Origin: an archaeon BMS3Bbin15
GTDB lineage: Archaea; Hydrothermarchaeota; Hydrothermarchaeia; Hydrothermarchaeales; BMS3B
Assembly (NCBI GenBank): GCA_002897955.1
Contig: BDTY01000023.1
Location: forward strand, 1-42,896
Reading direction: 5' to 3'
DNA length: 42,896 nucleotides
Part shown: in pieces, positions 202 through 39,028 of the stretch
Layout: each line of letters opens with the position of its first letter
Numbering within the stretch: the stretch's first letter is position 1
Position numbers and translations under genes: made by a program
The notes under the pieces: model-generated
Seen by the model: the letters and a program-made list of their open reading frames with translations, nothing else
What the model was told of the DNA's origin: nothing
Databases searched by the model: none

Positions 202-418
202 AATTGCACTGTTAAATATAGGGAGAAGAAGTCTGAATTAGTGAAAACCATGTAAAAATATCGGCTTTTGGTGTCTGATGCAGGGTGAGGGAGGAAGTTG
301 ACTGATTAAAAGACCACAGTTCCACTGATTTTCTATAAATTTTAGCTGGAAGATATAGGAGAAGGAGTTTCGAATTGATATTATCCAATTAGAACCAGAG
401 TTTTAAGGGGGTAATTGG

Positions 419-730
419 ATGGTCTCCATAATGCTATACATTAACGAATACATATTTAAGGCAGAAAATCTAAATGTAAAAAGAGTTAATATGGTAGATT
501 TTACCTATCTGAAGAATTTTACCGCAAAGTGCATATACTGTTCAAATATTATAATGAAGTGGAATTACAGTGGTGCAGAACTCAATATGTTCTGTGCTCT
601 TTCAAAGGATATGCGCTCAGAGAGATGCGATTTCTTTGACCTTATTAAAGTTGTGACATGCAATAAATGCGGAGAAAGGTGTGAGACAAATACAAAATAC
701 TGTTCAAATTGTGGTTCCCTTCTGAAGTAA
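419..730 (+). CDS. Small protein with C-terminal zinc ribbon
   Basis: This 103-residue protein is of unknown function. The C-terminus carries CNKCG and CSNCG knuckles about 17 residues apart, a classic zinc ribbon. Upstream, CIYC (near residue 38) and further Cys at about 58 and 69 could form a second metal site. The ATG at 419 follows a GGGGGT purine tract at 7-base spacing, while an internal Met at residue 25 is an alternative start. The 217 bases before it hold no gene that I can see. It converges on the UPF0146 gene with only 1 base between them. It may bind nucleic acid or a protein partner, but nothing more specific is supported. Confidence 0.6.
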   Translation: MVSIMLYINEYIFKAENLNVKRVNMVDFTYLKNFTAKCIYCSNIIMKWNYSGAELNMFCALSKDMRSERCDFFDLIKVVTCNKCGERCETNTKYCSNCGSLLK

Positions 731-35215: not shown

Positions 35216-35247
35216 TCTTTTCTTTTATATCTTTTCCTTTTATATAA

Positions 35248-35331
35248 CGCCGGGGAAGGGATTTGAACCCCTGGGCTCAAACGAGCACCAGATCTCGAAT
35301 CTGGCGCCTTTCCTAGCTAGGCTACCCCGGC
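35248..35331 (-). tRNA. tRNA-Ser (anticodon CGA)
   Basis: On the minus strand GCCGGGG (acceptor) pairs with CCCCGGC. The D arm contains TAGCCTAGCTAGG, the anticodon stem CCAGA/TCTGG encloses TTCGAGA with anticodon CGA (serine, UCG codons), a long variable arm follows (TGCTCGTTTGAGC), and the T arm is AGGGGTTCAAATCCC with GGTTCAA. The discriminator is G, as for serine tRNAs. CCA is not encoded. It borders the recombinase module. Confidence 0.95.
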
Positions 35332-35432
35332 CACATCCTTATTATGAAACATGACAACTCAAGATTTTTCTGTTTTTAAACTTAAACTATTTTATAAAGC
35401 ATACGTTTTATAATATACTTACAGGCCATAGC

Positions 35433-35471
35433 TTTACAACAATGTTTTCAGACTTAAAAGATTATTGTAAT
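35433..35471 (+). repeat. Recombinase-module site, copy 1
   Basis: TTTACAA, 2 bases, ATGTTTT, a variable spacer, then AAAGATTATTGTAAT. The last 15 bases are identical to copy 2 in direct orientation 115 bases away. It lies in the A+T-rich stretch between tRNA-Ser and the serine recombinase gene. Confidence 0.55.
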
Positions 35472-35548
35472 CATACCGCAGACAAATTAACCTGTTTAAC
35501 ATATTCTATATGAACTATATGTTATAAAATAAATATTTCATAGAAATT

Positions 35549-35586
35549 TTTACAAGTATGTTTTAAAAGGCAAAGATTATTGTAAT
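35549..35586 (+). repeat. Recombinase-module site, copy 2
   Basis: TTTACAA, GT, ATGTTTT, AAAAGGC, then AAAGATTATTGTAAT, sharing all three blocks with copy 1. Its last 10 bases cover the stop of the serine recombinase gene. Against copy 3, read on the opposite strand, TTTACA, TATGTTTTAAAA and ATTATTGTAA are shared. Confidence 0.6.
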
Positions 35587-36251
35587 TTTAATTTTTCAAG
35601 AGTTTTAAGCGTTCTATAAATCTTTACGTGATTTATATCAATTTCAAATTCTTCTGCAACTTTTATGGCTATTTTTCTGTATGATAACTTCATCTGCCTC
35701 AATTCCTTAATTCTTAATGCTGTCTTGGATGGTGTAACCTTTGTGTGTTTTTCTCTCTCTACCTCAAATAGGTCTGGAATTCTACCTATCCAGTATCCAT
35801 CCTTCTTTATCTTCTGCATTCCAAACTTGGTCTTTCTTGCTAAGTCTTTTCTGAAGTAGGTGGCAAAACCGGCCTGAAGAGTGAAAAAGAGTTCACCTTC
35901 AGGAGATGTTATATCAACATCCAGGTTCGAAAATCTGAATCTTACCTCATATCTGAGGAGCTCCTGGGTGATTGTTAGAGCATCTTTTGTATCTCTGCTT
36001 AGCCTGTCGTTATGATAACATAGGACAACTGAAAATTTTTTATTTTTTGCATCTTTGATTAGTTTCTGGAGAGCAGGTCTTTTCAAATTTTTTCCACTGT
36101 AGCCTTTATCAGTATATGTGCCGTAAACTTCAAAATCTTCTTTTTTTGCCCAGTCCTCAAGAAACTCTTCTTGTGCTTCAATACTTGCCCCCTTTTCAGC
36201 CTGTTCCTCTGTACTTACTCTGATGTAAAGAGCTGATTTTTCACTACCCAT
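35577..36251 (-). CDS. Serine recombinase (resolvase/invertase), catalytically complete
   Basis: A 224-residue serine recombinase. The catalytic domain has Y9-x-R11-x-S13 (YIRVSTEEQ, nucleophile S13) and YHNDRLSRD with R83 and R86. The E-helix reads GELFFTLQAGFATYFRKDLARKTKFGMQK, and a C-terminal helix-turn-helix (ALRIKELRQMKLSYRKIAIKVAEEFEIDINHVKIYRTL) binds DNA. The size is that of small resolvases and invertases, with the large PF07508 domain missing. A TATATATG box at 36272-36280 suggests a leaderless transcript from the ATG at 36251, just downstream of the palindrome at 36283-36308. Confidence 0.85.
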   Translation of the reverse strand: MGSEKSALYIRVSTEEQAEKGASIEAQEEFLEDWAKKEDFEVYGTYTDKGYSGKNLKRPALQKLIKDAKNKKFSVVLCYHNDRLSRDTKDALTITQELLRYEVRFRFSNLDVDITSPEGELFFTLQAGFATYFRKDLARKTKFGMQKIKKDGYWIGRIPDLFEVEREKHTKVTPSKTALRIKELRQMKLSYRKIAIKVAEEFEIDINHVKIYRTLKTLEKLKLQ

Positions 36252-36282
36252 AATGTTAAATTGGGGTGGTTCATATATATCT

Positions 36283-36308
36283 GTTACGTAAGGGAGCCCT
36301 TACGTAAC
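36283..36308. promoter_or_regulatory. 26-base perfect palindrome with central AG
   Basis: GTTACGTAAGGG and CCCTTACGTAAC are perfect 12-base inverted arms around the dinucleotide AG, in the 85-base gap between the two recombinase genes. It abuts the TATA box of the serine recombinase, so it may be an operator. Symmetric arms around a non-palindromic 2-base centre are also how serine-recombinase crossover sites are built. Confidence 0.6.
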
Positions 36309-36336
36309 TGAAAATTTCAAGAAAAACAGGGTGATT

Positions 36337-37062
36337 TTAAGGGACATTGTCTTTGAGATACCGGGACTGGAAATCAAAAGCGTCGTTGACTATGGGAGTG
36401 TATGAGAGACCTTTCAGTCTTGATAAAGCCTCCTCATACTCCTTTTCAGAAATTATTGCTTTATGAGAACCTTTAACAAGAATGTTGCTCCATCTCAGAT
36501 AACCACAATATATAGGATTTGAAAGAATCTTTGCTATGGTCTGTTTTTTCCAGTTTTTACCTTTTTTTGTCGGAACTTTTCCTTTGTTCAGAATGTCTGC
36601 TATCTCAGAAAGACTTTTTCCGTTTATATATAAAGAAAAAATTTTTTTCACATGCCAGAACTCCTTTTTCTCAACAATAAGTCTGTTATTCTTATATGTG
36701 TACCCATAGGGTGCAGGAAATCCTGGATGGTTTCCTGATTTGACTCTCCTTTCAAGACCAAATCTGATTTTTTCAGAAATATTCTGGGATAAATCAAGAA
36801 TTTTTATAAGAAATGTATTTCTGTCTTTGAAAGAAGTTATATTTTCTCTGGCCAGAGCAACTTCTATATCTTTTGAAAATAATTCTGCCAGAAAATATGG
36901 GAAATTTCTAATCTCTCTCTGTGCTGCAGCAAGAGATGATAAAACAACTACATCCACGTCTGTGTTCTCTGGATACCCTCCAACATATATCCACTTCATT
37001 TTATTTATATAATCCAGTATTCCTTTTTTCTTTCCAGATACTGAAGCAGCTTTGATACTCAA
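36337..37062 (-). CDS. Degenerate large-serine-recombinase-like protein, catalytic residues missing
   Basis: A 241-residue protein. Residues 100-215 are a good PF07508-type recombinase domain (FGLERRVKSGNHPGFPAPYGYTY, GKSLSEIADILNKGKVPTKKGKNWKKQTIAKILSNPIYCGYLRW). The N-terminal 95 residues keep the resolvase outline (DVDVVVLSSLAAAQREI, FLIKILDLSQNISEKIR), but Y-x-R-x-S is reduced to AASVS, the DRLSR arginines are replaced by SSLAAAQRE, and a stretch of roughly 20-25 residues is missing. It is also short at the C-terminus. It probably binds DNA without cutting. The start overlaps the winged-helix gene by 4 bases. Confidence 0.75.
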   Translation of the reverse strand: MSIKAASVSGKKKGILDYINKMKWIYVGGYPENTDVDVVVLSSLAAAQREIRNFPYFLAELFSKDIEVALARENITSFKDRNTFLIKILDLSQNISEKIRFGLERRVKSGNHPGFPAPYGYTYKNNRLIVEKKEFWHVKKIFSLYINGKSLSEIADILNKGKVPTKKGKNWKKQTIAKILSNPIYCGYLRWSNILVKGSHKAIISEKEYEEALSRLKGLSYTPIVNDAFDFQSRYLKDNVP

Positions 37063-37559
37063 TTCTTTTCTCCTCCCAGAATACTTTCAATCTTCCGGAG
37101 AATTTCATGTCTAAGCTGAACTTTTTCTATGTTTTTTGGTCTTGTTTTTAAAGTTAAGTATTTTATTCTACCAAGTACTCTTGCATGTTTTGGAAGTACT
37201 TTACCCTTCTCTTCTATCTCATCGAGTACTTTTTTAATTCTCAGGTTATATTTCTCAAGCTTGCCAGCCGGCATATATTTTTCTTCACTTTCTTTATAAT
37301 CTTTATCTTCAATATTTGCTTTAATCTCTTCAATAAGTTTTGCAATTTTCAACCCTTTTTCAGTCAACATGAGCTTCTTCTCTCTCCCTGTTTTTGTGCT
37401 TTTTATTATTCCTATCTCTTCAAGGTCCTTTGCAACATTAAATAGATGAGAGTAAGAAGCTTGAAGATTCCTTCCAATTTCTGAGATATTTGAACTTTTT
37501 TTCTCATTCAGGTAGAGAATCAGACCGGTTCCTATCTTCTGAAATATCAATTTGTTCAT
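37059..37559 (-). CDS. Winged-helix regulator of the recombinase module
   Basis: A 166-residue protein. The N-terminal winged helix (GTGLILYLNEKKSSNISEIGRNLQASYSHLFNVAKDLEEIGIIKSTKTGREKKLMLTEKG) is MarR/ArsR-like. The C-terminal 70 residues are charged helices (LRIKKVLDEIEEKGKVLPKHARVLGRIKYL), of a kind found on archaeal plasmids and viruses. AAAGGTGA precedes the ATG. It is the first gene of a coupled pair with the degenerate recombinase, and copy 3 of the repeat covers its promoter, so autoregulation is likely. Confidence 0.7.
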   Translation of the reverse strand: MNKLIFQKIGTGLILYLNEKKSSNISEIGRNLQASYSHLFNVAKDLEEIGIIKSTKTGREKKLMLTEKGLKIAKLIEEIKANIEDKDYKESEEKYMPAGKLEKYNLRIKKVLDEIEEKGKVLPKHARVLGRIKYLTLKTRPKNIEKVQLRHEILRKIESILGGEKN

Positions 37560-37572
37560 CTCATTTCACCTT

Positions 37573-37610
37573 TTACAATAATGATTATATTTTTAAAACA
37601 TATCTGTAAA
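37573..37610 (-). repeat. Recombinase-module site, copy 3 (inverted)
   Basis: Read on the minus strand: TTTACA, GA, TATGTTTTAAAA, ATATAATC, ATTATTGTAA. It matches copy 2 in inverted orientation, differing only by an AG/GA swap and in the spacer, which is one base longer. It includes a TATA-like TTTTAAAAATATA for the winged-helix gene 14 bases downstream. Confidence 0.6.
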
Positions 37611-37726
37611 ATTTTGATATATAATCTATGTTTTATATAATATATAATACTTTCTATTCTTTATTAAACATATTTTTTCTTTTAAAAAGGAAAGACTTAA
37701 AAGCCCAAATAAATCATAATAAATTC

Positions 37727-39028
37727 ATGGAAAAGAAAATCTGTCTTACTATTGCCGGGTCAGATTCAGGAGGAGGCGCAGGCATACAGCAGGATTTGAA
37801 AACCTTTGCAGCTCTGGATGTTCATGGTGTCAGTGCAATAACCGCTCTCACAGCTCAGAATACATGCGAGGTTAGAGAAGTTTTTCAAATAACGTCAGAT
37901 TTTATTAAGAGTCAGATTGATGTTATATTTGATGATTTTAATATTTCAGCAGCCAAAACAGGCATGTTATATTCCAGTAGTATAATATCTGCTGTAAGCG
38001 GTTATGCTAAAAAGGTGCCTTTCATTGTGGACCCTGTAATGGTTTCCACTTCAGGTGATATTTTACTTGAAGAAGAAGCTCTCAGCATACTGAAAGAAAA
38101 GTTACTGTCCAGAGCTGCTTTAATCACTCCGAATATCAGGGAAGCTGAAATTCTCACAGGAATTAAGATTAAAAATTTTGGGGATATGAAGAAAGCTTCA
38201 GAAGAGTTAAGTGTTTATGCCCCTGTCCTCCTTAAGGGTGGTCATCTCAGTGCAACTGATATTCTATTTTACGATAATAGAGTATATAAATTAAAAGGGA
38301 GATATATTGAAGGTAAATTTCATGGCACAGGATGTGCCTATTCTGCTGCAGTAACTGCCTATATTGCAAGAGATTATAATCTCGTAGATGCTGTAAAGAT
38401 GTCAAAAACTTATATTCAAATCCTGATTGAAAACTCCTGCTACTCTGGAAAAGGTGCAGAAATACTTGATCCTCTTTATAATCTCAGAAGAGAAGCTGAA
38501 AAAATAGGAGTTATTGAAGAACTTTCAAAAAATGTTGAAAAACTCCTTGAAATTAAAAATATTGACATGCTTATACCTGAAGTTGGTATGAACTTTGGAT
38601 ATGCTCTTAAAAATCCAGAAACAACTGGAGATATTGCAGCCCTCAATGGCAGAATAGTAAAAGTTAGAGGAAAAGCCCGTACATCTGGCTGTGTTGAATT
38701 TGGTGCATCAAAACATATAGCAGGAGTTATCCTTGCAGCTTCAAAATTTTATTCTGAAATAAGAGCGTGTTTAAATATAAAATTCAGCAGAGATGTCCTT
38801 CAGGCATGCTTTAATTCCGGTCTGAGTTATGCAAGCTTTGATAGAAGAGACGAGCCACCTGGAAAAAGTACTATGGAATGGGGAACAGCCGGTGCTCTGA
38901 AGAAGGCAGTGAAAGCTGTTGATATTATATATGACAGAGGGGGTACTGGTAAGGAGGCGATGATAAGAGTGCTGGGTACAACGCCTTCTGAAATTATTGA
39001 GAAAGTTGCAGGTATAGTTGCGGAGTAA
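37727..39028 (+). CDS. thiDN: Bifunctional HMP-P kinase / thiamine-phosphate synthase (ThiDN)
   Basis: A 433-residue fusion. Residues 1-255 are ThiD, which phosphorylates hydroxymethylpyrimidine phosphate (CLTIAGSDSGGGAGIQQDLKTF, VDPVMVSTSGD, and the kinase anion hole GTGCAYSAAVTA). Residues 260-433 are ThiN, the archaeal thiamine-phosphate synthase (VGMNFGYAL, SGCVEFGASKHIAGVILAA, EWGTAGALKKA). I chose the Met at 37727; a frame back to 37628 adds 33 hydrophobic, low-quality residues. ACTTAAAA about 25 bases upstream suggests a leaderless transcript. Confidence 0.92.
   Translation: MEKKICLTIAGSDSGGGAGIQQDLKTFAALDVHGVSAITALTAQNTCEVREVFQITSDFIKSQIDVIFDDFNISAAKTGMLYSSSIISAVSGYAKKVPFIVDPVMVSTSGDILLEEEALSILKEKLLSRAALITPNIREAEILTGIKIKNFGDMKKASEELSVYAPVLLKGGHLSATDILFYDNRVYKLKGRYIEGKFHGTGCAYSAAVTAYIARDYNLVDAVKMSKTYIQILIENSCYSGKGAEILDPLYNLRREAEKIGVIEELSKNVEKLLEIKNIDMLIPEVGMNFGYALKNPETTGDIAALNGRIVKVRGKARTSGCVEFGASKHIAGVILAASKFYSEIRACLNIKFSRDVLQACFNSGLSYASFDRRDEPPGKSTMEWGTAGALKKAVKAVDIIYDRGGTGKEAMIRVLGTTPSEIIEKVAGIVAE

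Follow-up and report, generated by a model that had tools for sequence, protein, structure and literature searches.

The recombinase module described here, found in a window of 42,896 nucleotides (the whole stretch of DNA that was analysed), is most likely a chromosomally fixed serine-recombinase/site system that resolves chromosome dimers in place of XerA/dif, a reading that we hold with about even confidence. Recombination at this locus is probably real, but at a 26-bp palindrome (P) inside the module and not at the dyad sites (A) that flank it. P is the strongest palindrome of the locus and was missing from the list of sites in an earlier sequence-only reading of the same DNA, which had suggested an invertible segment or integration ends at the flanking sites.

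Organization of the recombinase module

The genome that contains the window (G000) belongs to the same family as Ca. Pyrohabitans jungbluthii (G002), of the phylum Hydrothermarchaeota. The three genes of the module follow the order R, D, S on the minus strand (Table 1), and the recombinases, thiDN and PAC2 make up the neighbourhood. Domain searches agreed with the gene calls of the sequence-only reading (a winged-helix protein, a degenerate recombinase and an intact serine recombinase), and the tRNA-Ser beside the module was confirmed. The three copies of the flanking site were also found again at the same coordinates, two as direct repeats on the tRNA side and one inverted on the opposite side, although what had been described as a composite site proved in each copy to be a dyad, with one half-site (TTACAAWAATGTTT) present twice in inverted orientation.

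Table 1. Features of the recombinase module and its neighbours (window coordinates).
Feature	Position	Strand	Description	Remarks
R	37059..37559	-	Winged-helix DNA-binding protein, 166 aa	Conserved C-terminal helical region (GRxxxLxxxxRP)
D	36337..37062	-	Catalytically degenerate member of a conserved short serine recombinase family	Domain search
S	35577..36251	-	Intact serine recombinase, 224 aa	Catalytic domain plus HTH
P	36283..36308	+	26-bp perfect palindrome (12-AG-12), candidate crossover site	Between D and S
A1	35433..35470	+	Dyad site, probable R-binding site	Seen in sister species too
A2	35549..35585	+	Dyad site, 37 bp	Overlaps S stop codon
A3	37573..37610	-	Dyad site over R promoter	Inverted relative to A1 and A2
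tRNA-Ser(CGA)	35248..35331	-	Neighbour only	Any part in the system hypothetical
thiDN	37727..39028	+	thiD-thiN fusion, divergent neighbour of R	Common to two genera

In a sister species (G001), an insert of about 354 bp lies between PAC2 and tRNA-Ser (L050:8602-8955). On the left, the insert ends in what looks like a degenerate copy of the tRNA 3' end (compared with window positions 35227-35263), and in the middle it matches a dispersed repeat that occurs at window positions 302-426 as well; to judge from these similarities, the tRNA end seems to have been used by another element.

The palindromic site P

P reads GTTACGTAAGGG-AG-CCCTTACGTAAC, with perfect arms around an asymmetric centre, and lies about 32 bp upstream of S. 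It is identical in G001 (26/26 positions, against 52/59 for the remaining D-S intergenic DNA), and equivalents were found in G012 and G036, where they lie about 35 bp upstream of S-type genes, and in G002, G003, G004, G007, G009, G018 and G019, where they occupy the 3' end of D-type genes; G014 has a diverged form. Two 12-bp arms around a 2-bp centre are the classical geometry of serine-recombinase sites. A site of this 12-2-12 form was present at 64 of 80 related loci, with an AG or CT centre in 60 of these 64, and the CGG/CCG of the site core was 96-100% conserved. In all, 61 sites were counted in Hydrothermarchaeota and Thermoplasmatota against 1.2 expected from shuffles.

The recombinases and their relatives

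Both enzymes are serine-family proteins (PF00239/PF07508) and not tyrosine recombinases; a tyrosine-recombinase remnant with four stops was observed elsewhere in the same genome (G000:C81:4934-5233). The Resolvase domain of S is intact (PF00239, E 1e-37). D retains an intact PF07508 (Recombinase) domain, but its catalytic domain no longer has the N-terminal Ser motif or the DRxxR motif. An intact catalytic domain with the nucleophilic serine is a property of S and of D-type relatives but not of D itself, and the catalytic residues are invariant in intact family members. Comparison of G000 with G001 gave dN/dS values of 0.13 for S, 0.20 for D and 0.24 for the neighbouring thiDN; S and D are under purifying selection, and the low value of D indicates that it is maintained though presumably unable to catalyse. 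The structure prediction for D was poor (pLDDT 65). CcrA/B/C were among the best-scoring NCBIfam models for the recombinase, far below the cut-offs of those models.

A recombinase of about 270-300 aa (catalytic domain plus PF07508) is widespread in Thermoplasmatota. Among other ARRANGEMENTS, a second gene is often added at Thermoplasmatota loci. In some of them an S-like second recombinase follows the site (L118, L120, L121, L132, L135 and L151), which parallels the D-P-S arrangement of the window, and in others (L111, L119, L142 and L160, among others) the second gene encodes an HNH-like, Cys-rich N-terminus joined to PF07508, with no catalytic domain. The latter type of gene was also observed in L115, L146, L155, L158 and L161, and in G016 (L057:2977-3807). 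Clearly asymmetric arms around the same core occur at some two-gene loci (L164:6807, L166:6687 and L176 at about 6617), as though each half-site had its own kind of subunit, but a pairing of tandem recombinases with asymmetric sites, as in XerC/D, is not claimed here, since the site is symmetric at many loci with tandem recombinases or two genes.

The genomes G011 (R plus a D-type gene) and G012 (R plus an S-type gene) have common flanking genes on the side of R, indicating that S replaced D at that locus; between G012:C9 and G011:C145 (L063 and L062), the swap from D-type to S-type recombinase includes its palindrome. S has appeared twice independently and, from these comparisons, looks horizontally acquired.

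Identity of the recombinase among G002, G004 and G009 is 83-86%, compared with 62-67% for thiDN and 42-63% for R, and across genera its identity (78%) is about equal to that of the thermosome (79%). Moreover, the hydrothermarchaeal D-type proteins form one clade that follows the families, and two genera have the module next to thiDN with its orientation unchanged, G006 ending in a stub of the R promoter. No module was seen in some Hydrothermarchaeota MAGs (e.g., G008, G010, G013, G015 and G017), all less than 90% complete. Contig breaks at the module (G005, G006, G011 and G016) were also considered as a sign of population variants, and by a rough estimate based on the lengths of the contigs they are unremarkable.

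The locus might instead be a domesticated or relic integrase locus, in which the recombinase and P came from a mobile element and P is an attachment site or a place that excises or admits elements. The nearest non-archaeal relatives found, recombinases on bacterial plasmids with 34-39% identity, would fit such an origin, as would the apparent horizontal acquisition of S and the variation from species to species in the DNA that separates P from the distal A sites. Nonetheless, we consider this explanation unlikely: the recombinase shows thermosome-level conservation and a lineage-following tree, the locus is fixed beside thiDN in two genera, viral contigs hold few close relatives (six loci, two of them close), and no second P was present in any searched Hydrothermarchaeota genome, so that there is no attL/attR pair. 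Besides, no palindrome of the archaeal P type adjoined the gene in the plasmid relatives of Priestia, Geobacillus, Anoxybacillus and Vagococcus.

Copy number of the site and distribution of XerA

In searches that allowed up to 2-3 mismatches, P was single-copy in G000, as it was in all Hydrothermarchaeota genomes that yielded the site. In Thermoplasmatota, 11 of 12 genomes, two complete chromosomes among them, have one site each, and the twelfth has two recombinase loci with one site apiece. A possible objection to dimer resolution is that the recombinase inverts or deletes DNA by pairing P with another, more distant site whose sequence has diverged, given that serine recombinases can use differing sites and that our searches tolerated only a few mismatches. 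Yet the sites on which Hin/Gin-type systems act are nearly identical to each other, a perfect palindrome is suited to a partner of the same sequence, and no partner within 2-3 mismatches was found in the two complete chromosomes; we therefore regard a diverged partner as quite improbable.

XerA/dif resolves chromosome dimers in other archaea, and the distribution of XerA bears on the role of the serine system. In a set of 200 Thermoplasmatota genomes, each with a completeness of 90% or more (serine system at E<=1e-50, XerA over its cut-off), the serine system was found in 77 and XerA in 71, with both in only 3 where about 27 were expected; 74 genomes had the serine system only, 68 had XerA only and 55 had neither. 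With a looser XerA threshold (E 1e-50), the number of genomes with both rose to 13. The Fisher p value of this contrast (2e-15) ignores phylogenetic clustering and is therefore overstated, and since the split follows families there were fewer independent events than the counts suggest. No genome of the class of the window passes the XerA cut-off, the only strong XerA-like matches in that class being in G010, where no module was found, and in G016. Many archaea without XerA also lack the serine recombinase, so the absence of XerA alone proves little. Altogether, the distribution of XerA is support for the dimer-resolution reading, not proof. On the complete chromosome CP070836.1 (1.79 Mb), a distance of 269 kb separates the site from the only orc1 gene. 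Some 4-mer skews switch at most 5 kb from the site, which is not significant (permutation p about 0.5-0.8), and these data fit a position at the replication terminus as well as one outside it.

The A dyads and the winged-helix protein R

The half-sites of each A dyad start 22-23 bp apart, and the pattern TTTACANNNATGTTTTN11-12ATTATTGTAA has exactly three matches in the whole 1.74 Mb genome, compared with zero for the reversed control. All three sites are kept in G001 (identities of 36/38, 33/37 and 35/38). In related genomes, 35 half-sites were found in 32.6 kb around the module against 8 in 138.9 kb elsewhere. Dyads surround the module in the R-bearing g1, g2, G007 and G012, and they are absent from G014, G018 and G019, which have the recombinase and lack R; no half-sites were found in 45 kb of family f6 genomes with the recombinase and without R. 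R occurs without clear dyads in G016, G011 (where the contig is cut) and G003 (weak). Since A occurs only in genomes with R, the A sites look like R-binding sites, and R and A are probably partners, as far as such co-occurrence can tell. A second, AT-rich type of repeat (ATATAT..TATATTTTATA) was observed alongside the dyads on both sides of the module, at window positions 35388-35417, 35502-35531 and 37612-37660, with equivalents in L051-L055.

R has a dN/dS of 0.39 between G000 and G001. Its AlphaFold model (pLDDT 82, pTM 0.46) retrieved AspA (5k5q, 4rs8), PH1061, AF1382 and MarR-type regulators at the top of a Foldseek search with near-equal scores, and the predicted likeness to AspA is a lead only. 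A defence role of the module was considered and set aside, PADLOC having given only weak winged-helix matches.

The sequence-only reading had also suggested that the flanking sites could be operators. This fits A3, which overlaps the R promoter, but A1 and A2 lie at the far end with no obvious promoter adjacent and may be accessory or architectural sites. A broader version, in which P and A have no role but that of operators, the recombinases serve as regulators and strand exchange is vestigial, could draw on the A3-covered promoter, on the catalytically dead D and on the position of P close upstream of S and just upstream of the gene in one clade. At most loci, however, P follows closely after the recombinase gene and hence is not simply an operator of the recombinase promoter; the catalytic residues of intact members are invariant, and the asymmetric AG/CT centre kept in nearly all otherwise symmetric sites would be needless for an operator. 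This version is accordingly very doubtful.

The invertible or mobile segment proposed by the sequence-only reading is highly improbable and largely refuted by fixed synteny, for although the module of several species lies between A copies in inverted orientation, R is divergent from thiDN with one orientation in all genomes examined (G000, G001, G002, G004, G009 and the G006 stub), the dyads are missing where R is missing, and A copy number and positions differ from species to species. Neither is a role of the A copies as integration ends supported, these being absent elsewhere in the genome and confined to genomes with R. Inversion or transposition between A sites was rejected for the combination of fixed synteny and R/A co-occurrence.

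Comparison with known systems

The closest comparators are archaeal XerA/dif (Cortez et al., 2010; PMC2958812) and the single-recombinase systems XerS/difSL and XerH/difH (PMC5357621). As in Xer/dif, a chromosomal recombinase is paired with one short two-armed site per chromosome, and as in XerS/difSL the site adjoins the recombinase gene; in Thermoplasmatota, XerA and the system of the window are distributed near-exclusively. The chemistry differs (tyrosine in Xer/dif, serine here), as do the sites (11-6-11 versus 12-2-12), and the Hydrothermarchaeota system is accompanied by R and the dyads.

The resolvase/res systems of plasmids and Tn3-family transposons share the Resolvase catalytic domain, the 2-bp crossover centre and a single site per replicon beside the gene, as well as extra sites nearby if the A dyads are such sites. 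They differ in the short resolvase HTH, where D-type proteins have PF07508, and the system of the window is chromosomal; its A sites, candidate accessory sites, lie 0.7-1.3 kb from P and are probably bound by another protein. Large serine integrases and Ccr recombinases have the catalytic domain plus PF07508 in common with the present family. The large integrases, however, also have a zinc-ribbon/coiled-coil region and attL/attR sites, whereas the family of the window (270-300 aa) has neither and its recombinases end after PF07508. In addition, Hin/Gin invertases act on two inverted crossover sites, in contrast to the present system, where only one P was found at up to 2-3 mismatches. AspA of pNOB8 (PMC5120986), an archaeal protein that binds centromeres and the best fold match of R, is also a winged-helix protein whose gene has a dyad upstream, but the 27% identity covers a generic winged helix that other regulators match almost equally, and AspA has ParB and ParA beside it while neither gene adjoins R among the neighbours inspected at the locus.

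Proposed mechanism and implications

In the proposed mechanism, the serine recombinase would act at the single P beside its own gene, where two 12-bp half-sites would flank the asymmetric 2-bp centre (AG/CT) that sets direction. Since there is normally one P per genome, the natural substrate would be a chromosome dimer, and recombination between the two P sites of the dimer would resolve the chromosome. R would bind the flanking A dyads and regulate the operon through A3, and it may build a nucleoprotein complex around P, the spacing of the A sites from P being far for accessory sites. The ancestral form would be one enzyme of about 290 aa, with a catalytic and a PF07508 domain, doing the work alone. 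In the genus of the window, D has been kept after the loss of its catalytic residues and S, a second recombinase with its own P, would supply catalysis; in G012 S has wholly replaced D at the same locus. We infer the cleavage of P, the binding of R to A and the purpose of dimer resolution.

More generally, in Hydrothermarchaeota and much of Thermoplasmatota the resolution of chromosome dimers may fall to serine and not to tyrosine recombinases, which would act at a 26-bp serine "dif" adjoining the gene of the serine enzyme; we see this proposal as evenly poised. Under the same proposal, the system would take the forms of a single enzyme with a palindromic site, of tandem enzymes, of an enzyme with a catalysis-free partner and, in the window, of a dead D beside an active S under a winged-helix protein. 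No earlier report of serine-type chromosome-dimer resolution was found in the literature searched, and, if the proposal is true, this would be to our knowledge the first known case of chromosome-dimer resolution by serine chemistry. Overall, a conserved, unit-copy pair of serine recombinase and site that is seldom accompanied by XerA provides a concrete and testable alternative in two archaeal phyla, and the locus may capture a replacement in progress, with one recombinase losing catalysis and a second, with its own site, taking over the same locus.
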